Origin: Phycisphaerales bacterium
GTDB lineage: Bacteria; Planctomycetota; Phycisphaerae; Phycisphaerales; UBA1924
Assembly (NCBI GenBank): GCA_029260375.1
Contig: JAJDDI010000068.1
Location: 62,001-126,000 of the forward strand
Direction of reading: 5' to 3'
Length of the DNA stretch: 64,000 nucleotides
Below the pieces are notes generated by a model. It saw only the letters and a program-made list of their open reading frames with translations. It did not search any database and was not told the origin of the DNA. Below are positions 3,835 to 64,000 of the stretch, piece after piece (position 1 is the first letter of the stretch; each line of letters begins with the position of its first letter). The translations under genes and the position numbers were made by a program.

Positions 3835-3854
3835 GGCGGGCAGGGCGCGGGCGA

Positions 3855-4775
3855 TCAGGCTGGGTCGCAGGCGCGGTAGGCGTCGATGACGCCCCGCTCG
3901 CCCGGTTTCTCCGGGCGCGAGTTGCCGTGCTCCATGCCCAGGATTCCAGTAAATCCCTTGGCCTTGATGTGCGCAAAGACATTGCGGTAGTTGATCTCGC
4001 CTGTGGTCGGCTCGTTGCGACCCGGGTTGTCCCCCATCTGGAAGTACGCGATCTCGTCCCAGCAGCGGTCGATGTTGGGGATGAGGTTGCCCTCGGTGAT
4101 CTGCTGGTGGTAGAGATCGCACAGGATCTTGCACGCGGGCGAGTCCACGGCGCGGCAGATCTCGTAGGCGTGTGCCACCTTTGCGAGCAGCATGTTGGGG
4201 TGGTTGTGGGGGTTGAGCGGCTCGAGGACCATCACGAGTCCGTGGGGCTCGAGCACCTCGGCGCCGACGCGGAGCTGGTCGATCGCCGACGCGGTCTGGT
4301 AGCCCAGGTCCAGCCGCGGCTCGCGTGTGCCGGGGACCACGGTCATCCACGTCGCGTTGACGCGCAGCGCGATCTCCACCGCCTGCTTGGCGGCGTCCCG
4401 GAACCTGTCGCGTTCTGAGCTTTCGTTCTTGCTGAATGTTGGGCCCCAGGCGCTGGCGGGGTTGAGCACGAAGACGCCCATGCGGATGCCCAGGCGCTGC
4501 ATGGCCCTGGCGATCCGCTCTTGCACCTCTGGCGAGCGTCCGCCCATACCGTTATCTTCCCACGCGGTGAAGCCCTGGTCGGCAGCGAACTCGAGCTGAG
4601 CGACCGGGTCGTCCCCGGCGTGGTGGCGGAACATGCCGAAGTGGGGGGCGAACGCCATGGAGAACGGCTCAGCGCTGGCGTTCTCGATTCGGTGGGGCGC
4701 GGAAGCGGCGCTCGGGGCCGCCAGACCCGCGATGCCAGCGGCGCCCACACCGGCCAGGAACTCTCTTCGCTGCAT
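3855..4775 (-). CDS. Tat-exported TIM-barrel sugar isomerase/epimerase (hydroxypyruvate isomerase-like)
   Basis: A 306-residue protein of the AP-endonuclease-2/xylose isomerase-like TIM-barrel superfamily. The N-terminus (RREFLAGVGAAG) is a twin-arginine-type signal with an Ala-rich core. Barrel strands carry likely metal ligands in VMVLEPLN, in ILCDLYHQQ and near the C-terminus in GILGMEHGNS, which match the Glu/Asp/His/Glu pattern of this family. GGAGACTT lies just before the ATG. It is the last gene of the leftward operon, 15 bases after the stop of an exported Gfo/Idh/MocA oxidoreductase. Such pairs in Planctomycetota are linked to oxidation and epimerisation of sugars or inositols, including 3-keto-glycosides. 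The substrate here is not known. Confidence 0.85.
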   Translation of the reverse strand: MQRREFLAGVGAAGIAGLAAPSAASAPHRIENASAEPFSMAFAPHFGMFRHHAGDDPVAQLEFAADQGFTAWEDNGMGGRSPEVQERIARAMQRLGIRMGVFVLNPASAWGPTFSKNESSERDRFRDAAKQAVEIALRVNATWMTVVPGTREPRLDLGYQTASAIDQLRVGAEVLEPHGLVMVLEPLNPHNHPNMLLAKVAHAYEICRAVDSPACKILCDLYHQQITEGNLIPNIDRCWDEIAYFQMGDNPGRNEPTTGEINYRNVFAHIKAKGFTGILGMEHGNSRPEKPGERGVIDAYRACDPA

Positions 4776-4790
4776 GTAAGTCTCCGGGTC

Positions 4791-6062
4791 TTAGGTCAGG
4801 GGTGTGCGTCCGGGCGTGGGGACGGGGTCGGTCTTGAGCGAGCCGAACGCGTACGAATCGGGCGAGAGGTCGAGGCCTGATGCGAGGGCCATGTCCCAGG
4901 TGACTTCCTTGCCGGTGTACGCGCTCATGCGTCCCATGATCGCGGTCAGGGTGCTCTCGGCGACGCGCTGGGCCTCGTTGAGGTGGGGGCCGTCGCCGCG
5001 GATCGAGGCGATGAGGTCCGCGTGCTCGACAATGTACGGGTTTGGGTGGTCGTCCCGGAACTTCCAGGGCTTGTCGCCCGTGATCTGCGCGAAGGCGGGC
5101 CAGGAAACGCTCTGCCCGCGCGTGCCGGTGATGCGCTCGTCCACCCGGGTCTGGCAGCCGTCGATCTGACGGCACATGCTCGTGGCGCGTCGCCCGCCGG
5201 CGTACTCGTACTCGATTGCGAAGTGGTCGAAGATGTTGCCGTACTTGGCGTCGGTGCGCACCTGGCGCCCGCCCATGCCGACGGCCTTGAGGGGATGGCC
5301 CCCCATGGCCCAGTTGACGACGTCGAGGTTGTGGATGTGCTGCTCGCAGATGTGGTCGCCCGAGAGCCAGCAGAAGTAGAGCCAGTTGCGGCACTGCCAC
5401 TCCATGTCGCTCTCGTGCGGCTCGCGATCGTGGACCCAGAGCCCGCCCTGGTTCCAGGCGCAGCTGGCGGAGACGACCTCGCCGATCTCGCCCGAGGCGA
5501 TCCGGTCCATCAGCTCGAGGTAGCTGGATTCGTGGCGGCGCTGCGTGCCCGCGACCACGGACAGGCCCTGCTCGCTGGCGGCCCGCCCGGCCTTGATGAC
5601 ACGGCGGATGCCCGTGGGATCGACGGCGACGGGTTTCTCCATGAAGACATGCTTGCCCGCGTTGACCGCCGCGTCGAAGTGGATGGGGCGGAAGTGGGGC
5701 GGCGTGGCGAGGACGACGTAGTCGATGTTCTTGAGTTCGAGGAGCTTCTCGTAGGCGTTGAATCCGGAGAACCGATGGGTGGGGGGCACGCTTACGCGGT
5801 CGCCCCATTCGTTGTGGAGGTTGCTGAAGCTGCTCTCGAGGCGGTCAATGAACAGGTCCGCCAGCGCGACGACGCGGACGCTGGGGTCGGCCTCGAGCGC
5901 GTTCCACGCGGCGCCCGTGCCCCGCCCGCCGCAGCCGATGACGCCGACACGGATCAGGTCGTCGCCGCCCGTGCTCAGGCGGGCCGCGAAGGAGGGCGCG
6001 ACGACCGCGCCGACGCCCAGGGCCGAGGCCTTCATCATGTCCCGCCGTGACCATTCGCTCAT
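4791..6062 (-). CDS. Tat-exported Gfo/Idh/MocA family oxidoreductase (copy B)
   Basis: A 423-residue NAD(P)-dependent sugar dehydrogenase-type protein. It opens with a twin-arginine signal (SRRDMMKASALGVG), then the Rossmann loop GCGGRGTG (residues 43-50) and the family signature MEKPVAVD (about 141-148). The C-terminal domain contains GDHICEQHIHNLDV, which includes the catalytic His region. Because it is exported it probably carries its nucleotide with it, as reported for glucose-fructose oxidoreductase; this is inference. The ATG at 6062 has a GAGGAG site. It lies between two TIM-barrel isomerase genes and is a diverged paralogue of the oxidoreductase at 7025-8356. Oxidation of a glycoside or cyclic polyol in the periplasm is the likely job. 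Confidence 0.88.
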   Translation of the reverse strand: MSEWSRRDMMKASALGVGAVVAPSFAARLSTGGDDLIRVGVIGCGGRGTGAAWNALEADPSVRVVALADLFIDRLESSFSNLHNEWGDRVSVPPTHRFSGFNAYEKLLELKNIDYVVLATPPHFRPIHFDAAVNAGKHVFMEKPVAVDPTGIRRVIKAGRAASEQGLSVVAGTQRRHESSYLELMDRIASGEIGEVVSASCAWNQGGLWVHDREPHESDMEWQCRNWLYFCWLSGDHICEQHIHNLDVVNWAMGGHPLKAVGMGGRQVRTDAKYGNIFDHFAIEYEYAGGRRATSMCRQIDGCQTRVDERITGTRGQSVSWPAFAQITGDKPWKFRDDHPNPYIVEHADLIASIRGDGPHLNEAQRVAESTLTAIMGRMSAYTGKEVTWDMALASGLDLSPDSYAFGSLKTDPVPTPGRTPLT

Positions 6063-47974: not shown

Positions 47975-50900
47975 ATGAAGACTCGAACCGACGGCGTGAT
48001 GAGACGGTCGCTGCAGTGCTTCCTAGTGGCCGGGATCTGCGCTTCGCTGGCCTCCGCGGGACCCGAGGGCGCCGAGATCGTCAACGGGACCGCGACGTTT
48101 GTGCACAACGGCGTCCTCACCCGCATCTGGGTCTCCGACGGGGCGATCATCAACTACGCCAGCTTCAACATCGCCACGGGCGAGACCGTTCGCTTTATCC
48201 AGCCCGGCGCGAACGCCAGAGTCCTCAACCGAATCCTCGGCGCCGAGCCCACCCGGATCGATGGCAACCTGATCTCCAACGGCCAGGTTTACATGGTCAA
48301 CCCCGCGGGCGTGGTCTTCGGCCAGGGAGCGGTGGTCAACGTTGGCGCCCTTTACGCCGCCGCCGCGAACATCTCCGATCAGGACTTCGTCGCCGGCAAC
48401 AACCACTTCACCGGCGCCAGCGGGAGTGTCGTCAATCACGGCTACATCTCCAGCGACTTCGTCGCGCTCATCGGCGGACGCGTCGCCAACCACGGCCAGA
48501 TCAAAGTCGGCGACGGCGCGGTTGTCATGGCCGCGGGCGAGGACATCCTCATCGGCGAACGCTTCGGATCCCTCTACGTCCGCGTCGAGGGCGCCCCGGA
48601 CCGTGTTCCGGGCTCCACGCTCGGGTCCAGCGGCGACGCGGGTCTGGACATGGCGGCCGGTGATGTTTTCTCACTCGCCGCGTGGAACACCGGGACCATC
48701 CAGGCCGGCACGACCCACGTCGAGGCGAGCCACGGCAGGACCGTCGTCTCGGGCGTCATCGACGCCGCGGACCGCGGCGACGGCATCGGGATCGGTGGCG
48801 ATGTCCGCCTCCTAGGCCAGACGGTCGAACTCCGCGGCGCCACCATCGACGCCTCGGGCAAGTACGGCGGGGGCAACATCTGGGTCGGCGGCGATCTCTC
48901 AGGCTCGGGCGACATGCGCCGCGCCCGGTGGACCCTCATCGACGCCAACTCCTCCCTCTCCGTGGACGCCCGCAACCACGGGCATGGCGGGCGGGCGATC
49001 ATCTGGTCCGACCGCGGCACGGTTGTCGATGGCCAGATCTACGCCCGCGGCGGGAGGCACTGGGGCGACGGCGGGTTCGTCGAGACCTCCAGTCTCGGCG
49101 GCCTTCACCTCTCAAATCCCGTGAACGCGTCCGCGACCAACGGCAAGGGCGGGCACTGGCTCATCGACCCCACCGGCATCCTGATCTTCCCCGGCTCGGG
49201 CGGGTCGCTGACCGTCGGCGGCGGGTTTGTCCAGGCCGCGGGCGCTGTGACCTCGGCCTCCATCGGTGACGCCGTGATCAACGCCGTCCTCAACATGGGG
49301 ATGGACCTCACCATCACCACCGACAACCCCGCGGCCAGCGTCAACGGCAACATCGAGCTCCAGTTCGGCGCCAACATCATCAAGTCGATGGGCGGCGACG
49401 CGACGCTGACGCTGCGAGCGGCGGACAACATCGTCCTGTACGGGGATGTCCTGAGCTCTTCGGGCGTTCTCAATCTGAATCTCATCTCAGGCGACCCTGC
49501 TCAGGCGGGTCAGCTCGGGCACACGCCTGTCGGCCTGACGGCGATGACCGGGAGCATCGACCTAAACGGCGGGGCGCTCTCGGTTGCGGCGGACTGGGTA
49601 TATGTGGCGCCGCAGAACTTCCTCGGCGCCCCAGTCGAGATCCACGCCCAGACGATCGACTTCCTCGCACGCAACGCCGGGAATATCCTCGTGCAGGGCG
49701 ACCTGTTCTTCGACGGGCAGCTCGCCGGGACCGAGTTTGGCGTCCGCATGATCGGCGGCGCCATCGACATCCACTCGCTCCTGCAATCCGGGGCAGGCTC
49801 GCAGAGCGGGGCGCAGTTCCAGAACTCGGGACGCCTGTCGCTGTTCCCCACCGCCGACCTGCGGCTCACGGGTCCCTTCGAGCAGATCGGCTCGGACGTC
49901 TGGCTCGGCGCCGACATCTCGACTACGCAGGACTCGATCCTCTTTGACGGTGATATCACCCTGCTCGACAGCGTACTCCTGGACACGGGCGACGCGCTGG
50001 CCACCGGCTCGCAGGTCGTCCGCTTCGGCGGCGCCATCGACAGCGCAACCTCGGGCATGTTTGCCGGACCTCACAGTCTGAGCGTGGACGCCGGCGGCGG
50101 AACGCTCCTGCTCATGGGCGACGTCGGCTCCCTTGGTCAACTCGCCCAGATCACCCTGCGCGGACGCGAGACGACCATTCAGAGTGTCTACACGACCGGA
50201 CAGCAGACCTACACCGCCGATACGCTCCGGATGCAGGGCGCCGAGCTGATCAGCTCGCTCGCCGGGCGTATCCGGGTTCTGGACGAGTCGTTGCCGGCAT
50301 CGAGCTTCGTCGGCAACACAATCCTCGAGAACGACGTGCTCGTGCGCACCGCCGGCGCCGCCGGGGATAACGTTGTCTTCCGCGGCACGGTCGACTCGAT
50401 GACCCCGGGCGGGCACACGCTCGCGGTTGACGCCGGGGCGGGCGGGCTCGTCACGTTCGTCGGCTCGGTCGGCGCGGGCGGTCCCGGTCATACCCTCGAT
50501 ACCCTCCGAACCACAGCCCTGGAGACCCGCTTCTGGGGTCCCGACGTCATGACGCTCAACGGCATGACCTTCCACAGCCCCGTTGAAATCGCTGGGGCAA
50601 GCACAACCTTCGACACCGGCCTCGGGACCGGCTTCTTCAACGGGCACGTGTACTCCCGAGAGGGCGTCTTCGCCGATATCGCCTTCGCCTATATGGGCGA
50701 CGCGTCGATTGGCCTGGGGACGGCGCGGGCCCCGTTCGTGTTTGCCGGCAACCTCGGCGACGTTGGAACCGGCGCCTTCAACCGAGCGTTCAACTCGATC
50801 ACCCTCGGTGGTGACCTGACCGACCCCGCCGCGTCCGCGTCCTTCGTCTTCGCCAACGCCGACCTGCTGCCCAACGGTCTGATCGACGCAGGCTCGCTCG

Positions 50901-53387: not shown

Positions 53388-56300
53388 ATGCTATCCTGCC
53401 GAGCCCCATACACCCAGATGGCTTGTCGCGCGAACCTCTCTGTGCCGGTTCGAACTCTTGCGATCTTGGTCGCGATCATGTTCGGAGCCGAATCGGCGGT
53501 TGCTCAGCAAACCGATCCCGGCGTAACCTTCCGTCTCTACGAGGTCGCCGATGACCCGAACGAGATCCCGACGCTCGCGCCGGACCAGACTCCCAACGTG
53601 GATCAGCTGCGTGAGCACATCGACTACCAGTACGACGACTTCGCCGCCGTCTCGGCGCCATTCGTCACGCACGTCATCGCCAAGCTCCTGATCACCGCGC
53701 CCGGTGAGTACCGCTTCCGCCTCACCAGCGACGACGGTTCTCGACTCGCCATCGGCACTCAGGTCGTGCTACGCAACGACGGGCGCCACGCGTCGGTCTC
53801 ACTCACCAGCGATCCCCGCCGGCTCGAGGTCGGCGCCTACCCGCTCTTTGTCGAGCACTTCGACCATGTCGGCGACCGGGTACTCCGTCTCGAATGGCTT
53901 CCCCCCGGCGCCAGCGACTTCGCCCTCATTCCCACGGCGAACCTGCGCGCCAACCGAGATCTCACCCGCGTGACCTCGCCGGGCGTCAAACGAGTTGAGG
54001 GTGCGCGCCGCCCGGGCGACCGCACGCCCCTCCTCGACGTCCACCCCGGGTGGACCCTCTCCACCATCCGCCCGCCCGGTTACGAGCCCAAAGTCGGGGC
54101 CATGGCCTTCCTCCCCGACGGGCGACTGGTCATCGGCACGTTCGACCCCCTCCAGCGCGATGACCGAGAGCTCCCCGACATCGAGTCCAAGGAGCCCGAC
54201 GCCCTCTACGCGCTGGCCAACCTCGACGCCGACGATCCCACCCAGATCACCCGCACCCGAATCGCGAGCGACCTGTACGAGCCCACGGGCCTGTGTGTCG
54301 TGGAAGGCGTCCTCTACGTCGCCAACCGGCGCGGCGTCGAACGCCTCCTCGACACCGACGACGACGGCTTCTTCGAGACCCACCAGATCATCGGCCAAGG
54401 CTGGGAGGCCTGGAACTACCACCAGTTCGCCTTTGGCCTCCTCCACCGCGACGCCAAGCTCTACACCGCCCTCTCCACCGCCATGGCCCCGCCCGGCTGG
54501 GAGGGCATGAAGGAGAACGCCGGTCCTAACGGGCCGATGCGCGGCGGCATCGTCGAGATCGACATCGAAACCGGCGACACCCGCATGATCATCGGCGGCG
54601 TGCGCACGCCCAACGGCCTCGGCTTTACCGCCGACGGCGCCATGATCTACCTCGACAACCAAGGCACATGGATGCCCTGCAACCAACTCTCCGAGATCAT
54701 CCCCGGGCGTTTCTACGGGCATTATAACTGGACGAGCTTCGTCCCCAAACTCGCCCAGCGCTTCCCCAACGGCGGACACCCCAGCATGCTCTCGGACCGC
54801 CCACGCACGCCTGCGGCCGTCCTCATGCCACAAAACGAGGTCAGCAACTCGCCGACCCAGCCGCTTCTCATCGAGTCGGGTCCGTACGCAGGGCAGCTCC
54901 TGGTCGGCGAACTCACCGCCGGCGGCGTGCGACGCGTCATGCTCGAGCGCGTCAACGGGCAGCTCCAGGGCGCCCTCTTTCGTTTCACCCAGGGCCTCGA
55001 ATCTGGTGTCAACCGCATGGCCTGGGGACCCGACGGCTCGCTCTATATCGGCGGCATCGGCGCGGGCGGCAACTGGAGCTGGCGCGGCACGCAGTTCGGC
55101 CTCCAACGACTCACGCCCAATGGCCAGAGCGTCTTCGAGATGCACAGCGTCCACGCCACACCCGACGGCTTCCGTGTCACCTTTACCAAGCCGGTAGCTC
55201 GTGATTGGCTCGCGGATCCCGACAACTACGCCGTCAGCTCGTGGACCTACGAGCCGACTGGCGCCTACGGCGGACCCAAGATCGACCAGCGCCCGCACGC
55301 CGTCGCCTCCGCGGCGCCGACCCCCGACGGGCGCGAGGTCCGGCTCGTCGTGGACGGGCTCCAGGCTGGACGCTGCTATGCCCTCGTCACCGACCCCGCG
55401 AGCGCGGACGACGAAGCGATCTGGTCCACCGAGGCCTGGTACACGCTCAACGTCATCCCACGCCGCGAGCAGAGCAAGGCGTCTTCCATCGCGGGAAAGC
55501 CGATCAACCCCGTGAGCGTCGGCGTGGGCGTCCTCCCGCCGGTCGGCGCCGTCACGCTCATGGGGCGCACCACGTCCGCCACGATGCGGTTCGAAGGCAA
55601 ACCCTTCCCGCCCGAGTCGGTAACACAAGAGCAGATCATCGCGGGCCCAAACTTCATCGCCGTGGGGGAGAGCAGCGGCGACCTCGTCACCACCACCGAG
55701 TTCGCCGACGCGCGCATCCATGTGGAGTGGCTCAGCCCGCAGGGCGGCGCGGGACAGCTCGGCGGCAACAGCGGTGTCTATCTCCAGGGACGCTACGAGA
55801 TCCAGATCCTCAACACCCTCCCCGGCGACGAGCCACCGACCGACAACGAGGCCGGCGCCATCTACGGCGTCAAGCCCGCCGACACCAACGCCTCAGCCGG
55901 CCCCGGCGCCTGGCAGGCCTACGACATCTGGTTCCGTGCCCCGCGCTTCGATGGCGCCGTCAAGACCGAGGACGCCCGTGTCACCATCTACTGGAACGGG
56001 GTCCTCATCCACGATGATGTCAGCCTCCCGCACGCCACCGGCGCGCAGCAGGCCAACGCCGAGCAGCCCGCCGATGGCCTTGACGTTCAGATTGGCCCAT
56101 TGCGCCTTCAGGACCACGTCTCCGCGGCGGAAGGACCTGTCCGCTACCGAAACGTCTGGATGGCTCCGATCGAGAACACCCGATACGAACCCGGAGCCTG
56201 GACGGACCTGCTCGAGAACACCACCGACGACGGCTGGATGATCCGCGGCGGAAGCGCGACCTACCAGCGCGCCGACGGAAGCCTTACCGGCACGTCCACT

Positions 56301-56819
56301 CCCCATTCCCCCAACTCCTTCTACACAACCAGAAGCACCTACGCGGACTTCGAGCTCATCTACGAGGCCAAGGTCGATCCCCGTCTCAACTCCGGTGTTC
56401 AGATCCGGAGCCACGTCATCGGCGGTCTCGGCAACCGCGCCGGCGGGCTTCGCGGCTACCAGATCGAGATCGATCCCGCCGCCCGTTCATACTCCGCGGG
56501 GATCTACGACGAACAACGACGCGGCTGGCTGCACCCGTTGCACGCCGCCGAGTACGCCAGGCGAGCCTTCCGTCCAGGAGAATGGAACAGTTTCCGCGTC
56601 GAGGCGACTGGCCCCATTATCCGCACCTGGATCAATGGCGTTCCGGCCGCCGAGATCTTCGACGCGGCGACGCCCGAAGGGCACATCGGCTTCCAGGTCC
56701 ACGACGTCGGCGACCTCCAAGATCCGCTCCAAGTTCACTTCCGAAACGCGAAGATTCGGCGCCTGATTCCAGGCTCCCCCGGGTCGTTGAGGGGCGCATC
56801 GCCGCGCCACGATCGGTAA
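53388..56819 (+). CDS. Multidomain secreted protein: PA14, sugar-dehydrogenase-like propeller, two DUF1080 domains
   Basis: An 1143-residue exported protein. The ATG at 53388 has AAGGA upstream; the signal region is TLAILVAIMFGAESAVAQ. Residues about 65-195 form a PA14-like carbohydrate-binding domain (YDDFAAVSAPFVTHVIAKLL, YRFRLTSDDGSRLAIG). Residues 215-600 are a six-bladed propeller like PQQ-dependent sugar dehydrogenase/NHL proteins (YEPKVGAMAFLPDGRLVIGT, VRTPNGLGFTADGAMIYLDN). Two DUF1080 (3-keto-disaccharide hydrolase) domains follow, about 720-920 (GGNSGVYLQGRYEIQILNT) and 930-1125 (LNSGVQIRSHVIGGLGNRAG). DUF1080 enzymes split 3-keto-glycosides by elimination. This could act after the exported oxidoreductases at 4.8-8.4 kb make 3-keto sugars; that link is inference. 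Confidence 0.82.
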   Translation: MLSCRAPYTQMACRANLSVPVRTLAILVAIMFGAESAVAQQTDPGVTFRLYEVADDPNEIPTLAPDQTPNVDQLREHIDYQYDDFAAVSAPFVTHVIAKLLITAPGEYRFRLTSDDGSRLAIGTQVVLRNDGRHASVSLTSDPRRLEVGAYPLFVEHFDHVGDRVLRLEWLPPGASDFALIPTANLRANRDLTRVTSPGVKRVEGARRPGDRTPLLDVHPGWTLSTIRPPGYEPKVGAMAFLPDGRLVIGTFDPLQRDDRELPDIESKEPDALYALANLDADDPTQITRTRIASDLYEPTGLCVVEGVLYVANRRGVERLLDTDDDGFFETHQIIGQGWEAWNYHQFAFGLLHRDAKLYTALSTAMAPPGWEGMKENAGPNGPMRGGIVEIDIETGDTRMIIGGVRTPNGLGFTADGAMIYLDNQGTWMPCNQLSEIIPGRFYGHYNWTSFVPKLAQRFPNGGHPSMLSDRPRTPAAVLMPQNEVSNSPTQPLLIESGPYAGQLLVGELTAGGVRRVMLERVNGQLQGALFRFTQGLESGVNRMAWGPDGSLYIGGIGAGGNWSWRGTQFGLQRLTPNGQSVFEMHSVHATPDGFRVTFTKPVARDWLADPDNYAVSSWTYEPTGAYGGPKIDQRPHAVASAAPTPDGREVRLVVDGLQAGRCYALVTDPASADDEAIWSTEAWYTLNVIPRREQSKASSIAGKPINPVSVGVGVLPPVGAVTLMGRTTSATMRFEGKPFPPESVTQEQIIAGPNFIAVGESSGDLVTTTEFADARIHVEWLSPQGGAGQLGGNSGVYLQGRYEIQILNTLPGDEPPTDNEAGAIYGVKPADTNASAGPGAWQAYDIWFRAPRFDGAVKTEDARVTIYWNGVLIHDDVSLPHATGAQQANAEQPADGLDVQIGPLRLQDHVSAAEGPVRYRNVWMAPIENTRYEPGAWTDLLENTTDDGWMIRGGSATYQRADGSLTGTSTPHSPNSFYTTRSTYADFELIYEAKVDPRLNSGVQIRSHVIGGLGNRAGGLRGYQIEIDPAARSYSAGIYDEQRRGWLHPLHAAEYARRAFRPGEWNSFRVEATGPIIRTWINGVPAAEIFDAATPEGHIGFQVHDVGDLQDPLQVHFRNAKIRRLIPGSPGSLRGASPRHDR

Positions 56820-56928
56820 CAGCCTATGCCTTCGGCTCATAAAGTCTGGGAGATGATTGGCGGGTTGCGGAGCCCGCCAGTTCTCCATTGGCGGTACAGC
56901 TTGCACCTCTCATGACGAGAAGAGAACC

Positions 56929-58137
56929 ATGCCACCTTTCTATGTGCAACGTCGATTCGCTGAAACTGGCGCAGCCCTGCTCTGTGCGTTTTTTGTCGTG
57001 GGGTGCAGCACAGACGCGCGTGAGCCGCCGGCCCCGCCTCCGCCAGAGGTGACCGTCGCGCCCGTGCATACACGCCGGGTGCAGGAGTGGGACGAGTACA
57101 CCGGGCGTCTTCGCGCTGTCGAAACCGTCGAGATCCGACCCCGGGTGAGCGGGTACCTCCAGACGGTCAACTTCACGGACGGACAGACGGTCAAGCAGGG
57201 CGACCTGCTGTTTGTGATCGATCCGCGCCCGTACCAGGCGGTCCTCAACGCCACCAAGGCCGACTTGGCGCGCGCGGAGGTCTCGCTCGCTCTGGCCATC
57301 AATGACATGGAGCGGGCCGATCAGCTCCTCGCGAACAGGGCGATCTCTGCCGAGGAATATGACACACGAAGCAAGCAGGTCCAGCAAGCCGAGGCGAGCG
57401 TGCAGGAGACGAAAGCCAAGGTCGACTCCGCCGAGCTCGACGTCGAGTTTACCCAGGTTCGGTCCCCGATCGACGGACGAATGAGCAGAAGCCTCGTCGA
57501 CATCGGCAACCTGATCAGCGGCGGCTTCGAGGGCTCGACGCGTCTCGCGACCGTGGTGTCGATGGATCCAATCCACGCCTACTTCACCGCGAGCGAGCAA
57601 GAGTACCTCCGGTACACACGCCTCGCCAGCTCCGGGAACCGCCCGAGCTCACGCGATACCGCCAACCCCGTCGAGATGAGGCTGATCGATGAGACCGGTT
57701 TTCCACATCGCGGCGTGATGGACTACGTCGACAACCAGATCGACCCGTCCACCGGCACGATGCAGGGGAGAGCGATCTTTGACAATCCCGACCACGAGCT
57801 GATCCCCGGGCTCTTTGTGACGGTACGCCTGCTCGGCGCGGGCGCCTACGACGCCGTGCTCATCCCCGATCAGGCGATCGGCAAGGATCAATCGAACACC
57901 TTCGTCGTGGTCGTCGATGACGCGGGGATCGCAACCGACCGGTCGGTCACGCTCGGGCCCATCGTCGACGGGCTCCGGGTCGTCCGCACGGGTCTCAGCA
58001 GCGGGGAGAGCGTTGTCATCGAAGGACTCCAGCGGGTGCGGTCGGGGGCCCCGGTCACCCCGGATAGAGTTGATCTTGACGCGTGGCTCACCCGGTTCGA
58101 TCCCCCCGCGTCCCAGCCCGCCAAGGGCGACGAATGA
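56929..58137 (+). CDS. RND efflux periplasmic adaptor (lipoprotein)
   Basis: A 402-residue MexA/AcrA-type membrane-fusion protein. The ATG at 56929 leads into a lipoprotein signal (AALLCAFFVVGC). Lipoyl halves are VSGYLQTVNFTDGQTVKQGD and VRSPIDGRMSRSLVDIGNLI, with a helical hairpin between them (RADQLLANRAISAEEYDTRS), and beta-barrel plus membrane-proximal domains follow. Its stop overlaps the start of the RND pump (ATGA). No TolC-type channel gene lies next to the pair. Confidence 0.92.
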   Translation: MPPFYVQRRFAETGAALLCAFFVVGCSTDAREPPAPPPPEVTVAPVHTRRVQEWDEYTGRLRAVETVEIRPRVSGYLQTVNFTDGQTVKQGDLLFVIDPRPYQAVLNATKADLARAEVSLALAINDMERADQLLANRAISAEEYDTRSKQVQQAEASVQETKAKVDSAELDVEFTQVRSPIDGRMSRSLVDIGNLISGGFEGSTRLATVVSMDPIHAYFTASEQEYLRYTRLASSGNRPSSRDTANPVEMRLIDETGFPHRGVMDYVDNQIDPSTGTMQGRAIFDNPDHELIPGLFVTVRLLGAGAYDAVLIPDQAIGKDQSNTFVVVVDDAGIATDRSVTLGPIVDGLRVVRTGLSSGESVVIEGLQRVRSGAPVTPDRVDLDAWLTRFDPPASQPAKGDE

Positions 58138-61100
58138 ACTTTTCCCTCTTCTTCATCGATCGCCCGCGTTTCGCCATCGTTATCTCGGTCGTGGTGCTTC
58201 TCGTCGGGGCCCTGAGCTACCTCGGGCTGCCCGTGGCGCAGTTCCCAGAGGTCGCGCCCCCGACGATCATCGTCAACGCCGCGTATCCGGGCGCCGACGC
58301 GGCGACCGTCGCCGACACCGTTGCCACCCCGCTTGAGCAGGAGATCAACGGCGTCGAGGACATGCTCTACATGGCCTCGCAGTCCACCGGCGATGGCTCG
58401 ATGCAGCTCACGGTGACCTTCAAGTCGGGCACGGATCTCGACCGGGCCCAGGTGCTCGTCCAGAACCGCGTCGCCATCGCTGAGCCACGCCTCCCCGAGG
58501 AGGTTCGCCGCCTCGGGGTCACGACCAACAAGAGCTCGCCGGACCTGCTCATGGTGGTCCACCTTGTCTCCACCGACGACTCGAGGGACCAGCTGTACAT
58601 CAGCAACTATGCGTTCCTGCAGATCCGGGACGTCATCTCGCGCATCGACGGCGTCGGCCAGGTCCGCTTCTTCGGCGCTCGCGAGTACAGCATGCGCGTC
58701 TGGCTCGATCCCGACCGCTTGGCCGGCTTCGGGATGACCGCCGGCGACGTCTTGAAGGCACTCCGCGCCCAGAACGTCCAGGTCGTTGCGGGCGCCCTGG
58801 GCCAGCCGCCCATCCCGAGCGGGCAGGCGTTTCAGATCTCGGTCAACGCTCAGGGGCGATTCGCCAACGCAGAGCAGTTCGGAGACGTCGTCGTCAAGAC
58901 CGGCGAAGACGGGCGGCTCCTGCGCGTACGCGACATCGGGCGGGTCGAGCTCGGCGCCCGCGAGTACACCACGAACAGCTACCTCAACGGCAAGCCCGCC
59001 GTCGCCATGGTACTTTTCCAGCGCCCCGGCGCCAACGCAATCACCACGACCAAGTCGGTCATCGGCACGATGGATGAGCTGGCGAAGGACTTCCCGGACG
59101 GTTTCGAGCACCGCATCGTCTACAACCCGACCAAGTTCATCGAGGAGTCGGTCGCCGCGGTGATCCAAACGCTCTTCGAGGCGGTCCTCCTCGTCGTGCT
59201 GGTCATTGTGATCTTCCTCCAGAGCTGGAGGGCCGCGATCATCCCCCTCGCCGCGATCCCCGTCTCGCTCGTCGGGACCTTCGCGATCATGGGCCCGCTC
59301 GGGTTCTCGCTCAACAACCTCTCGCTCTTCGGCCTGGTTCTGGCTATCGGCATCGTGGTCGACGACGCCATCGTTGTGGTCGAGAACGTGCAGCGGAACA
59401 TTGAGGAGGGTCTCGCCCCCCGTGCCGCCGCCCGCAAGGCGATGGGGGAGGTCTCGGGACCAATCATCGCCATGTCGCTTGTGCTTGTCGCGGTGTTCGT
59501 GCCCACCGCGTTCATCAGCGGCATCTCAGGGCAGTTTTACCGCCAGTTCGCCCTGACCATCGCCGGGGCGACCATGATCTCGATGATCAACTCTCTCACG
59601 CTCAGCCCCGCGCTGTGCGCGATCCTGCTCAAGGAAAGAGCCGAGAGAAAGGGATTCGTCGCCAAGGCCTGGTGGGTGCTCACCGGCTGGTTCTTCTGGC
59701 TGTTCAACAAGACCTTCGACAAGTCATCGGTCGTCTACGCGGCCGCCGTCAGACGCTTGGTTCGTATGTCGGCAGTCGCCCTTGCCGTCTACGTGGGGCT
59801 CCTCGGGCTCACCGGCTTCATGTTCAACACGGTCCCGGGCGGGTTCATCCCTGAGCAGGACCAGGGCTACCTCATCGTCGCGATCCAGCTTCCCGAGGGC
59901 GCCTCCCTCGAGCGCACGGACCGAGTCGTCCGGCAGGTCTCGCAGATCGTCATGGACACCCCCGGCATCTATGGCGCCGTGGGGTTCGCCGGGTTCTCCG
60001 GGGCGACCCGAACCAACGCGCCCAACGCCGCAGCCGTCTTCACGCCCCTCGAGCCGTTCGAGGATCGCGTCAAGCGGGGGCTCTCGTCGTTCTCCATCCT
60101 CGCGGATCTCCAGCAACGGCTCGGGGCCGTCCGGGACGCGGGCGCCTTCGTCATCAACCCGCCGGCTGTCCGAGGGATCGGCACTGGCAGCGGGTTCCGC
60201 ATGCAGGTTCAGGACCGCGCCGGGCGGGGCTTCGAGATGCTGCAGGCGACGATTGAGGAGGTCGTCGGCTCCGCACGCGCCGATGCCGAGATCGTCGGCG
60301 CCTTCTCCACGTTCCGCGCGGACACACCACAGCTATTTGTGGACATCGACCGGACCAAGGCGCAGATGCTGGGCGTCCCTGTCGAGAACATCTTTGAAGC
60401 GTTGGGCGTCTACCTCGGATCCGCGTACGTCAATGACTTCAGCCTCCTCGGGCGAACGTACCGTGTCACCGCCCAGGCGGACCCCGGATCCCGGGTCTCG
60501 CCCGAGGACATCCTCGCCCTGCGAACGCGTAACGAAGAGGGGGGCATGGTCCCTCTCGGGTCCGTTGTGACCCTGCGAGACATCTCAGCCCCCAACCGGG
60601 TGATGCGGTACAACATGTTCCCATCGGCAAGCATCGACGGGCGAGGCGCCCCCGGCGTGAGCTCGGGCGAAGCCATCCAGCGAATGGAACAGATCGCCCA
60701 ATACACCCTCCCCCGCGGCATGTCCTACGAGTGGACCGACCTCGCCTATCAGCAGAAGCTCGAGGGCAACACCGCGATTTATATCTTCCCCCTCGCGGTC
60801 CTCTTTGTTTTCCTTCTGCTCGCGGCCCAGTACGAGAGCTGGTCCCTGCCCTTGGCGATCATCCTCATCGTCCCCATGTCCCTGCTCTGCGCGATCGTGG
60901 GGGTCTGGTTCCGGGGCATGGATAACAACATTCTCACCCAGATCGGTTTCGTCGTGCTTGTCGCCCTTGCGACCAAGAACGCGATCCTCATCGTCGAGTT
61001 CGCCAAGGTCCAGGAAGAAGAGGGCAAGGACCGATTTGCCGCTGTCGTCGAGGCCTGCCGCCTCCGCCTGCGTCCGATCCTCATGACCGCCTTCGCCTTC

Positions 61101-61286
61101 ATTCTCGGCGTGGTCCCCCTCGTGATTGCCACCGGGCCCGCCGCCGAGATGCGTCGGTCCCTCGGTACCACGGTCTTCAGCGGAATGCTCGGTGTCACGT
61201 TCTTCGGCCTCTTCTTAACGCCTGTCTTCTACGTGGTCATCCGAGGCGTGGTCACTCGGAACCGGCGGAATAAGCCCGCGACATAA
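58134..61286 (+). CDS. RND multidrug efflux pump (AcrB/MexB type)
   Basis: A 1050-residue inner-membrane pump of the HAE1 class. MNFSLFFIDRPRFAIVISVV is the usual first helix. The proton-relay aspartates sit in GIVVDDAIVVVENVQRN, and the matching lysine in ATKNAILIVEFAK. Twelve transmembrane helices and two large periplasmic loops are present. ATGA overlap with the adaptor gene fixes the start. It exports hydrophobic compounds from the periplasm with an adaptor and an outer-membrane factor encoded elsewhere. No regulator is adjacent. Confidence 0.95.
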   Translation: MNFSLFFIDRPRFAIVISVVVLLVGALSYLGLPVAQFPEVAPPTIIVNAAYPGADAATVADTVATPLEQEINGVEDMLYMASQSTGDGSMQLTVTFKSGTDLDRAQVLVQNRVAIAEPRLPEEVRRLGVTTNKSSPDLLMVVHLVSTDDSRDQLYISNYAFLQIRDVISRIDGVGQVRFFGAREYSMRVWLDPDRLAGFGMTAGDVLKALRAQNVQVVAGALGQPPIPSGQAFQISVNAQGRFANAEQFGDVVVKTGEDGRLLRVRDIGRVELGAREYTTNSYLNGKPAVAMVLFQRPGANAITTTKSVIGTMDELAKDFPDGFEHRIVYNPTKFIEESVAAVIQTLFEAVLLVVLVIVIFLQSWRAAIIPLAAIPVSLVGTFAIMGPLGFSLNNLSLFGLVLAIGIVVDDAIVVVENVQRNIEEGLAPRAAARKAMGEVSGPIIAMSLVLVAVFVPTAFISGISGQFYRQFALTIAGATMISMINSLTLSPALCAILLKERAERKGFVAKAWWVLTGWFFWLFNKTFDKSSVVYAAAVRRLVRMSAVALAVYVGLLGLTGFMFNTVPGGFIPEQDQGYLIVAIQLPEGASLERTDRVVRQVSQIVMDTPGIYGAVGFAGFSGATRTNAPNAAAVFTPLEPFEDRVKRGLSSFSILADLQQRLGAVRDAGAFVINPPAVRGIGTGSGFRMQVQDRAGRGFEMLQATIEEVVGSARADAEIVGAFSTFRADTPQLFVDIDRTKAQMLGVPVENIFEALGVYLGSAYVNDFSLLGRTYRVTAQADPGSRVSPEDILALRTRNEEGGMVPLGSVVTLRDISAPNRVMRYNMFPSASIDGRGAPGVSSGEAIQRMEQIAQYTLPRGMSYEWTDLAYQQKLEGNTAIYIFPLAVLFVFLLLAAQYESWSLPLAIILIVPMSLLCAIVGVWFRGMDNNILTQIGFVVLVALATKNAILIVEFAKVQEEEGKDRFAAVVEACRLRLRPILMTAFAFILGVVPLVIATGPAAEMRRSLGTTVFSGMLGVTFFGLFLTPVFYVVIRGVVTRNRRNKPAT

Positions 61287-61915: not shown

Positions 61916-62103
61916 AATCGCCGCACGAACTCGGCGGCGATCGGCGTATGAGGCCTGATTGATTCAGGAATGGGTGCGGCGTGACCTTCGATCACAGAGT
62001 CTATCAGGGGCTTTCCGCTCGCGAGTGGGATCACCCCGAAATCCCGGGCATGCCCCATGTTCATGACATACTCCATTTCGCTGTCAACAACGGTCAGACC
62101 CAT
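61909..62103 (-). pseudogene. C-terminal fragment of a serine-hydrolase-like gene
   Basis: A 64-codon leftward frame (MGLTVVDSEMEYVMNMGHAR, then PLIDSVIEGHA and IAAEFVRRLW) recalls the end of class C beta-lactamase-like esterases, in which a D-x-x-x-x-x-YVMN-x-M motif lies near the C-terminus. The catalytic SxxK and YxN parts are absent upstream. It is probably the remnant of a deleted gene; low confidence. Confidence 0.3.
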
Positions 62104-62281: not shown

Positions 62282-62310
62282 TTGACTTTCGCCTAGGGGC
62301 CGCCGATAGT
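62282..62310 (+). promoter_or_regulatory. Promoter of the Rrf2 gene
   Basis: TTGACT (62282-62287), a 17-base spacer and GATAGT (62305-62310), 43 bases upstream of the TTG start. Confidence 0.5.
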
Positions 62311-62352
62311 GTCCTTGTGAGTCTACATAAAAAGCCACCAACACCCAATGCC

Positions 62353-62850
62353 TTGGTCTCACAGACTTCTGAGTACGCGTTGAGGGCGGTTATCCATCTC
62401 GCACAGTTGCCCGCCGGCACACCAGCCGCCGCGATCGGCGTCGCCGAGGCCATCCGGGTGCCCGTGGGGTATCTTCAAAAGATTCTCCGCATGCTCGCGC
62501 GTGCGGGCATTCTCGACGCGCAGCGAGGCGCCGGTGGGGGATTCTCTCTCGCGAAGGTCGCCTCGGCGATCAGCGTGCTCGATGTGCTCCAAGCGACCGA
62601 TAGCGATGTTTCCCGCATCGAGCGCTGCCCACTCGGCATACCGGGACACACGCGCCTCTGCTCACTCCACAGGCTCCTTGACGATCAGATCGCGGAGATT
62701 CGGCAGACCTTTGCGACCACTTCGATTGCCGACTTGCTCGCCGATCAGGATGTCAGCTCGGGTCTCTGCTCGCCCGCCGGGGTCCAGGACTTGAAGGTCC
62801 GCCGATCCACCACAGACGCCCGCAGGCCATCCAAGAGAGAACCAACGTAG
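62353..62850 (+). CDS. Rrf2-family transcriptional regulator (NsrR-like)
   Basis: A 165-residue regulator. The best start is TTG at 62353, which gives the family N-terminus LVSQTSEYALRAVIHLAQLP; the longer open frame upstream crosses the predicted promoter. The winged helix includes AAIGVAEAIRVPVGYLQKIL and RMLARAGILDAQRGAGGGF. The ERCPLGIPGHTRLCSLH segment holds two of the three cysteines that bind iron-sulfur in NsrR/IscR, so cluster binding is uncertain. It sits upstream of a cytochrome and a nos-type gene, fitting a nitric-oxide or redox sensor. Confidence 0.82.
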   Translation: MVSQTSEYALRAVIHLAQLPAGTPAAAIGVAEAIRVPVGYLQKILRMLARAGILDAQRGAGGGFSLAKVASAISVLDVLQATDSDVSRIERCPLGIPGHTRLCSLHRLLDDQIAEIRQTFATTSIADLLADQDVSSGLCSPAGVQDLKVRRSTTDARRPSKREPT

Positions 62851-62975
62851 TTCCGTCTGGTCCGATGGGCAGGAGTTGTATTTTGCGGCCAAAGTGGACA
62901 TGTAGAGACACAACGATACGATGAGATGGAGCATGCCTCGGCCCTCCCTCTCCCCGTCCTCCCAGGAGCACCCGA

Positions 62976-63794
62976 ATGAACTCCCCGAACAAGCCTCACG
63001 CCCACGCATCCGCGCCAGATCCGTATCTGCTGCCGGCACTCGGAGTGGCCGTTGTGGTGATCTTCACCCTCCCCGTGATCATCGCGCTGGCCTCGCTCGG
63101 GCGTCACTCCATCGCAGCGGAACAAGAGCAACGAGCGGTCGCCAGTGTGCCGGCGCCCTTGACAGGCGAGGCGCTGGGCGCGGCGACCTTCCAGCAGTCC
63201 TGCGTCGTGTGCCACGGCCCCAACGCCGAAGGCGTCCCGGGACTTGGCAAGCCGATCCGCAACAGCGCGTTCGTCCAGTCGGCAACTGATGACGAGCTCT
63301 TCAACCTGATCGTCGGGGGCCGAGCCGTCGATGACGCGGCGAACACGACCGGGGTTGCCATGCCACCGCGCGCCGGGAATCCCGCCCTGACCGACGCGTC
63401 CTTGCATGCCGTCGTTTCCTATGTCAGAACACTTCAGGACCCGAATGTCCCGACCGCCTCAATCGATCCATGGACCAACATTCCGCATCCCTCTCACGAG
63501 GCATCGACGGAGACCGCCATCGGCCAGCCCGAGTTCATCGCTTCCTGCTCGGCTTGCCACGGCAGAGCAGGCGAGGGCCTCGACGGGCTCGGCAAACCGC
63601 TTGCCAAGAGCGAGTTCGTCAGATCCAGAACGGACAAGGAAATGATGACATTCATCAAAACTGGGCGCCCCATTTGGGACGCGGCCAACACCACGGGCGT
63701 GGACATGCCCGCCAAGGGCGGCAACCCCGCCCTGTCAGACGACGACATGCTCAAGATCGTTCAGTACATCCGTTCGCTGCAAGTCGACGGGTGA
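62976..63794 (+). CDS. Membrane-anchored diheme cytochrome c
   Basis: A 272-residue protein with one N-terminal transmembrane helix (LLPALGVAVVVIFTLPVIIA) and two cytochrome c domains. Heme sites are CVVCH (residues 76-80) with axial Met129 (GVAMPPRAGNP) and CSACH (191-195) with axial Met244 (GVDMPAKGGNP). The two halves are clear internal duplicates. AGGAG precedes the ATG. In clade II nos clusters, c-type cytochromes of this kind pass electrons to nitrous oxide reductase, and the next gene fits that. Confidence 0.9.
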   Translation: MNSPNKPHAHASAPDPYLLPALGVAVVVIFTLPVIIALASLGRHSIAAEQEQRAVASVPAPLTGEALGAATFQQSCVVCHGPNAEGVPGLGKPIRNSAFVQSATDDELFNLIVGGRAVDDAANTTGVAMPPRAGNPALTDASLHAVVSYVRTLQDPNVPTASIDPWTNIPHPSHEASTETAIGQPEFIASCSACHGRAGEGLDGLGKPLAKSEFVRSRTDKEMMTFIKTGRPIWDAANTTGVDMPAKGGNPALSDDDMLKIVQYIRSLQVDG

Positions 63795-63841
63795 AATGCT
63801 CTCGCGAGCGAGTGATCGCTCCATATGGAAGGACCGGAGTC

Positions 63842-64000
63842 ATGAGAAACCAGAATCGGTTCGGAACTGGCGCGGGCGCTCTCGCCCTTGCCGCGTTCCT
63901 CGCGTGTCCTACATCGGGCGCCTCGGCACAATCGATGTCCGACGTGCAGCGCATCGCGAAAGAACGCGGTCTCAGCACGGGCGACCTGCTCGCCGCCGCC
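63842..64000 (+). CDS. nosZ: Probable nitrous oxide reductase, clade II/Sec type, N-terminal part (runs off the right edge)
   Basis: The first 53 codons only. A Sec signal peptide (GAGALALAAFLACPTSGASA) is followed by SDVQRIAKERGLSTGDLLAA, which resembles the start of the mature part of clade II NosZ, where an ERGL-type motif precedes a K-T-x-x-P-x-G stretch. The Cu-site residues lie beyond the window. The upstream Rrf2 regulator and diheme cytochrome support the call. Other secreted enzymes cannot be excluded on so short a piece. Confidence 0.55.
   Translation, partial: MRNQNRFGTGAGALALAAFLACPTSGASAQSMSDVQRIAKERGLSTGDLLAAA

Follow-up and report, generated by a model that had tools for sequence, protein, structure and literature searches.

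Genes for clade II nitrous oxide respiration have been described in several settings close to the one reported here. Within the class Phycisphaerae, parts of one study assign nosZ to SM1A02 genera and, as a putative gene, to four UBA1845 genomes; the Phycisphaeraceae are said there to lack it (PMC11266412). In excerpts of a second study, Planctomycetota account for 1.7% of the clade II nosZ metagenome-assembled genomes (MAGs) from Danish plants and for 2.8% of the 144 non-denitrifying ones (PMC11409646). Clade II nos scaffolds recovered as sediment fosmids carry c-type cytochromes and are enriched in Rrf2 regulators; the consulted portions of that paper give no operator and do not use the name nosB (PMC6264515). 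The names nosG, nosH, nosC1 and nosC2 belong to the Wolinella type of cluster (extracts of PMC11539149).

The locus described here comes from a Phycisphaerales bacterium. The window, that is, the whole stretch of 64,000 nucleotides analysed, corresponds to positions 62001–126000 of a contig of 184,784 bases. The contig runs on past the window, so that the sequence beyond base 64000 could be read. A sequence-only reading had taken the last positions of the window for the edge of a probable clade II nitrous oxide reductase cluster, and a full nos set does follow past position 64000. With a probability of about 0.93, the locus holds a full operon for nitrous oxide respiration of the clade II (Sec-exported) kind, its main function included. 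It shares both class and enzyme with the Phycisphaerae genes of the first study (parts of PMC11266412) and, like the fosmid scaffolds, has rrf2 and cytochrome c genes beside its clade II nos genes (portions of PMC6264515). As nosZ of this clade in Phycisphaerae and neighbouring Rrf2 and cytochrome genes are already published, the cluster is not new in kind; it is a complete example from a little-cultivated order. What may be new is the likely operator of the Rrf2 regulator and the predicted fold of NosB.

The nitrous oxide reductase

The nosZ gene (63842–65830, plus strand) encodes 662 residues, and its first 53 codons (63842–64000) lie in the window. The remainder was read from L002, the 20 kb of the contig that contain the nos locus (contig positions 122001–142000), in which nosZ occupies 3842–5830 and each position equals the window position minus 60000. 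The exported protein starting at 63842, which had been noticed from its first residues, is thus NosZ. The 'ERGL' motif that drew attention to it (AKERGLSTGDLL) does belong to the NosZ N terminus and is not diagnostic by itself.

The protein scores 826.8 bits on the model of Sec-dependent NosZ (TIGR04246; cut-off of 625), 385.2 bits on that of Tat-dependent NosZ (TIGR04244; cut-off of 625) and 204.2 bits on that of clade III (NF052460; cut-off of 700). Its N terminus, MRNQNRFGTGAGALALAAFLACPTSGASAQ, is devoid of a twin arginine, and L002 is absent from the list of NosZ rows with an RR-like signal. Judged from these residues, the signal is of the Sec type and not of the twin-arginine type. The closest solved chain is PDB 5i5i, itself a NosZ (E value of 3.6e-93), and an alignment matches H127, H128, H176, H337, H404, H455 and H519 to conserved histidines of that structure. 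We take these seven histidines to be the CuZ ligands, and H606, C641, E643, C645, H649 and M652 (CSEFCSALHLEM), which form the set CxExCxxxHxxM with an upstream histidine, to be the ligands of CuA. The copper sites had been expected past position 64000; both sets of ligands are there, and the protein belongs to the expected family. By sequence, then, the enzyme is a clade II (Sec-dependent) nitrous oxide reductase. It resembles other Sec-dependent NosZ proteins in score, in an N terminus that lacks a twin arginine, in its CuZ and CuA ligands and in having nosB directly downstream, and shows no essential difference from the family.

Named genomes of bacteria and archaea were scanned for NosZ, which yielded 84 relatives, 80 of which were kept. 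Among them, given that the organism's own or very near records may be left out of such a scan, the nearest is from MAG Phycisphaerales OFTM359, with 89% identity in the best segment. In a tree of 96 rows, built by a quick method with SH-aLRT support and without bootstrap, the NosZ of this locus sits in a branch of 21 rows (SH-aLRT of 100); all 15 titled rows in it are Planctomycetota or a group within that phylum.

The nos operon and its surroundings

The sequence-only reading had also proposed that nosB, nosD, nosF, nosY and nosL be sought beyond the window, and all five were found, in that order and on the plus strand. Downstream of nosZ lie nosB (65929–66597), assigned by position and by similarity to NosB-like genes of relatives; nosD (66594–67997; 407.9 bits on TIGR04247); nosF (67994–68875), an ABC ATPase; nosY (68872–69747), an ABC-2 permease; and nosL (69744–70262; 50.8 bits on PF05573). 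The starts of nosB, nosD and nosL were picked from the reading frames, and with the chosen starts the junctions nosB/nosD, nosD/nosF, nosF/nosY and nosY/nosL each overlap by 4 bases, as happens where the genes of an operon are translationally coupled. The sequence establishes the gene content, the gene order, the copper ligands and the clade, and all the genes are on one strand. No nosR was recognized among the open reading frames of at least 110 residues in L002. Unlike the Wolinella cluster, this one shows no nosG, nosH, nosC1 or nosC2 among the open reading frames that were read, and a diheme cytochrome c adjoins nosZ instead.

Just downstream of nosL, on the minus strand, are two overlapping IS4/IS5-type transposase frames (70424–71147 in extended numbering; 10424–11147 of L002) with matches to DDE_Tnp_1 (37.7 bits) and DUF4096 (72.1 bits); together they resemble an insertion sequence of the two-frame kind bordering the operon. 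About 1.6 kb past nosL, genes for the iron–sulphur, flavoprotein and membrane subunits of a succinate dehydrogenase/fumarate reductase, named by reading their translations, point towards the nos operon (11869–15277 of L002, minus strand). On the other side, translations of the window read as an RND-type efflux pair, comprising a membrane fusion protein and an inner-membrane transporter, upstream of the nos genes (56857–61286, plus strand). Before this pair, a large protein is encoded in which PA14 and 3-keto-disaccharide hydrolase domains are combined (53388–56819, plus strand). A tRNA scan of L002 returned none.

The diheme cytochrome c

The gene between the regulator and nosZ (62976–63794, plus strand; 272 residues) encodes two cytochrome c domains (PF00034 and PF13442), each with a CxxCH motif (CVVCH at residue 76 and CSACH at residue 191), in keeping with the diheme cytochrome c that had been read there. 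Hydropathy reveals one strongly hydrophobic segment, which is N-terminal, and the protein is thus probably membrane-anchored. Of the 20 further rows in the NosZ clade, 18 have a homologue 5′ of nosZ, and the contigs of the remaining two (L010 and L014) start at nosZ. Two CxxCH motifs are present in 17 of 19 copies, the one described here included. The copies with three, in L008 and L063, are proteins of 373 residues encoded beside nosZ and represent a triheme version. In 12 of 19 loci titled Chloroflexota, related cytochrome matches are located 3′ of the nos genes instead.

From its position and build, we propose that the cytochrome donates electrons to NosZ. Electrons from the respiratory chain would be taken up by the membrane-anchored protein and delivered to CuA of NosZ, the enzyme that would then reduce periplasmic N2O to N2. 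NosD, NosF, NosY and NosL would serve the assembly of the copper sites.

Predicted fold of NosB

The membrane protein NosB marks clade II N2O respiration and is reportedly needed for it in Wolinella. A NosB-like gene is present in all 20 other rows of the NosZ clade. Searched against Pfam and NCBIfam at an E value of 0.001, the NosB of this locus matched no family, the Pfam claudin models included. When 50 NosB members were searched at an E value of 0.1, two touched TgpA_N (best E value of 0.0005), six touched the 'Rv2732c family membrane protein' (best E value of 0.009) and other families were touched singly; one of the 50 touched L_HMGIC_fpl (E value of 0.025), a claudin-related family.

An AlphaFold2 model of NosB, calculated from 50 sequences, has a pLDDT of 96.5 and a pTM of 0.90. 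The best Foldseek match to it in the PDB is mouse claudin-19 (E value of 2.6e-4), the sole match below 0.001, and the best 50 matches listed comprise claudins, a designed claudin fold, TARP gamma subunits, GSG1L, GARLH4 and DUOXA1. The best VIA-align match superposes 168 residues on a TARP gamma-5 chain with a Z score of 10.6 and an rmsd of 4.1. A second model, of the NosB from L043 (28% identical), was calculated from 21 sequences, none titled Planctomycetota, and has a pLDDT of 95.0. It retrieves the same families more weakly: the best E value is 8.2e-3, with none below 0.001, and the best Z score is 10.1. Of the 50 matches listed for it, 48 are of the claudin, TARP, GSG1L, GARLH4 or DUOXA1 type, and the others are LRRC8C and synaptophysin. 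The alignment behind the first model contains 20 of the 21 sequences used for the second, which is therefore not independent. No fold match has a TM-score above 0.48 when measured over the query, and Z scores of about 10 lie below about 13, in the range in which helical bundles may match by chance. The near-purity of the match lists, the presence of a designed claudin among the matches and the β-sheet of the outer loops favour a claudin-like match.

The predicted NosB fold is described as claudin/TARP-like: four helices with an outer β-sheet made up of the first and the last outer loop, a shape shared with animal claudins, TARP gamma subunits, MP20 and DUOXA1. Identity to these animal proteins is 4–16% in structural alignments and their function is unrelated; no common descent is claimed. 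Hydropathy agrees with the predicted membrane helices, and both ends of NosB are slightly rich in basic residues, as is the case for cytoplasmic ends. Seven residues (P47, W49, N82, H83, Y84, G86 and F165) are invariant in all 50 members. A limited literature search for NosB together with claudin found no paper, and nothing relevant was present among the wider claudin matches listed. The predicted fold provides a concrete hypothesis, open to testing, for this marker protein of clade II respiration. NosB might hold the electron-transfer partners together at the membrane, a tentative scaffold role that is less likely than not.

The NosB proteins of eight alphaproteobacterial loci are longer (397–406 residues), with an extra part of about 170 residues. 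A NosB–NosC2 fusion has been described (excerpts of PMC11409646); no such fusion was seen in these eight, as CxxCH is absent from all of them.

The Rrf2 regulator and a putative operator

The first gene of the group (62353–62850, plus strand) had been called an Rrf2 regulator, and its product scores above the cut-off on both PF02082 (92.8 bits) and TIGR00738 (95.8 bits). The start chosen, TTG at 62353, falls at the same place as the initiator methionine in L013 and L093, two relatives. Were the upstream in-frame GTG at 62317 the start, the first of the two putative operators described below would lie inside the gene. In phmmer searches, the regulator matches PDB 6y45 (E value of 1.1e-12), IscR (4hf1; 9.4e-9) and NsrR (5n07; 4.4e-8). 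It reaches 52.7 bits on the NsrR equivalog model, for which the cut-off is 182, and falls far below the cut-off of the IscR equivalog model. The regulator is a protein of the Rrf2 family, to which NsrR, IscR and the protein of PDB 6hsd/6y45 also belong, and membership in NsrR is not supported by these scores.

The protein contains the motif C-x6-H-x3-C-x2-H. Whereas NsrR and IscR carry a three-cysteine pattern, here two cysteines are ten residues apart, with one histidine between them and one after. All eight Rrf2 copies that are encoded just 5′ of the cytochrome on the same strand possess this motif, and each has one further cysteine near the C terminus. The motif is also present in two Rrf2 proteins encoded further off from the cytochrome (L016 and L019) and is missing from two others (L018 and L027). 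The gene is not a universal companion of the operon: it lies upstream on the same strand in 5 of the 14 clade rows with at least about 1 kb of sequence 5′ of the cytochrome. Two loci (L088 and L092) show rrf2 in part, and in L093 it is on the other strand.

In the aligned spacers between rrf2 and the cytochrome gene of eight loci, a common block was picked by eye; in this locus it spans 62890–62915 (plus strand), 5′ of the cytochrome–nosZ operon, and is termed putative operator 2. A matrix was built from the eight blocks and used, leaving one out at a time, in Python scans that covered the loci. In five of the eight cases the true site takes first place in its own locus, in two cases second place and in one case third; operator 2 ranks first of the 39,950 positions of its locus. 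Sites absent from the matrix were then considered, with the training site of each locus set aside. In all six Rrf2-linked loci testable at both ends, a site occurs 48–55 bases 5′ of rrf2, ranking first in four and second in two. In this locus it is the top site (62305–62330, plus strand; putative operator 1) and begins 48 bases 5′ of the TTG. By comparison, 300 column-permuted matrices placed a mean of 0.55 of the six sites in the top three, with a maximum of 3. An imperfect dyad, AGTGG...CCACT, stands 5′ of both rrf2 and the cytochrome–nosZ operon in six of six loci. Three dyad axes were tried, one of which was positive and two of which gave nothing. In the first set of sites, the positive axis scores at 41 of 104 paired positions, against a shuffled mean of 25.5 (a value of 41 was reached in 2 of 5,000 shuffles), and in the second set at 37 of 78, against 20.5 (reached in 0 of 5,000). 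A degenerate pattern made from the two sites of the window finds only those two in the genome at up to two mismatches, and its backward control finds one; as the pattern is tight, weaker sites elsewhere are possible.

On this evidence the dyad is probably the operator of the Rrf2 regulator. The alternative is that motif and rrf2 are unrelated, the motif being bound by a different regulator or belonging to a conserved promoter. Crp/Fnr has been proposed elsewhere to control nos genes of clade II (extracts of PMC11539149), and TTGAC-type boxes are visible by eye 5′ of the motif in several aligned loci; the dyad, however, differs in sequence from TTGA-N6-TCAA. The motif also recurs 5′ of rrf2 itself in all six loci, and in 13 of 14 loci that have no same-strand rrf2 just 5′ of the cytochrome, the region upstream of the cytochrome scores below 11. 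The link between motif and regulator is weakened by L008, where rrf2 is not a neighbour and the top-ranking site of the locus nonetheless reaches 14.3 bits. This score is within the range of the accepted sites, above one accepted leave-one-out score (11.9) and two of the unused rrf2-side sites (13.8 and 12.2). Taken together, we consider the alternative unlikely and retain the reading of the dyad as an Rrf2 operator. The regulator would then repress its own gene and the operon through the dyad upstream of each. Its C-x6-H-x3-C-x2-H motif might hold a metal or Fe–S centre, and release would follow when a redox or nitrogen-oxide signal changes that centre. The consulted sections of one paper sought out for nosZ, Rrf2 and operators describe no Rrf2 operator on nos genes (PMC1274295). 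The putative operator offers a way to ask which signal turns on N2O respiration in this group.

Other denitrification genes

The assembly consists of 99 contigs and is 91.8% complete. The panel of functions sought comprised NirK, NirS, NorB, nitrate reductase and NrfA. The genome gave no match to NirS (PF02239) or NrfA (PF02335). The NirK model (cut-off of 296.3) returned only two matches, at 52 and 24.3 bits; the weaker is NosZ itself, and the stronger, at position 90492 of contig C92, was rejected as multicopper oxidase-like, encoded downstream of an outer-membrane efflux-like protein. The sole PF00384 match reads as NuoG, so that no Nar or Nap was found. There are two genes of the COX1 family. 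One adjoins a CoxB that was read as having CuA and haem c. The other, of 813 residues at position 49711 of the nos contig, could by its length have been a quinol NorB and was rejected as one because NCBIfam identifies it as a CcoN–CcoO fusion (1,192.8 bits), of the cbb3 type. With both COX1-family genes accounted for, NorB was not found in the genome.

At 91.8% completeness, each single absence is weak, and the five together favour an N2O-only genotype: the organism is, on its gene content, most likely a non-denitrifying N2O respirer that would use N2O made by others. Alternatively, it could be an ordinary partial or complete denitrifier with its nir, nor or nar genes in unassembled parts of a genome in 99 contigs. 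Several related SM1A02 genera encode narGH, nirK and norB together with nosZ (parts of PMC11266412), whereas none of the first three was found here. The seven nosZ-bearing relatives bear on this point in both directions. None, at 90–99% completeness, has NirK above the cut-off. Four of them (G278, G337, G368 and G155) encode long PF00384 oxidoreductases of unassigned type, and three have weak, partial PF02239 matches (40, 33 and 27 bits; cut-off of 25.5), so the wider group may be mixed. Their 12 COX1 genes, judged by length and CxxCH, include seven of 593–638 residues and five of 759–864 residues; four of the five long ones have one CxxCH, and the fifth (L127) was left out. With five functions absent at once from the genome and NirK from all seven relatives, a denitrifier with missing genes is quite unlikely, and the non-denitrifying N2O respirer is preferred.

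For such an organism, NosZ might serve mainly as an electron sink, or to remove N2O during brief anoxia, and not for growth. Two COX1-family terminal oxidases, one of them of the cbb3 type, are as expected of an aerobe or microaerophile, and the obligate aerobe Gemmatimonas aurantiaca consumes N2O (portions of PMC6264515). Against this, the operon includes a membrane cytochrome, which points to a connection with the respiratory chain; the sequence itself contains nothing that separates a sink role from growth. We regard a mainly non-growth role as doubtful and keep to respiration.

A broader reading would join these elements. NosB would be a prokaryotic claudin/TARP-like tetraspan acting as an auxiliary subunit. 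With its periplasmic β-sheet and the invariant residues N-H-Y and P-x-W, it would dock both NosZ and the membrane-anchored cytochrome c, in the way that TARPs clamp onto receptor channels. In Phycisphaerales the module could answer to an Rrf2 switch of its own, built around an unusual Cys2His2 centre, and the organism would live on the N2O of others. As a whole, this combination is speculative and rather unlikely.

Distribution of the cluster

Of 392 genomes sampled evenly across the phylum, 17 pass the NosZ cut-off, that of this organism included: 5 of 10 in its own family, 2 of 21 from the remainder of the order and 10 elsewhere in the phylum. Some match to NosZ at an E value of 0.001 is present in 198 of the 392; those listed that fall below the cut-off are confined to the C-terminal part of the profile, save for one in G005 and a fragment in G125. 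Among 14 control genomes, six match NosZ at the same E value, none above the cut-off.

Genome G155, from another class of the phylum, carries a cytochrome gene, nosZ, nosB and nosD (locus L095). Its NosZ is 79% identical to that described here and nested in the Phycisphaerales branch, and this position, inside the branch and outside the class, suggests transfer of the cluster between classes. In a collection of 151 plasmid NosZ records, the best is 60.5% identical (Thermomicrobium), so the collection holds no near plasmid-borne copy.

For the study of the OFTM-named MAGs, a single nosZ, in KSB1 MAG OFTM356, is reported, and OFTM359, OFTM189, OFTM204 and OFTM80 are not named in the main text (PMC10732223). 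These four MAGs, which include that with the nearest NosZ, encode clade II NosZ, the gene in OFTM80 ending at the contig end.
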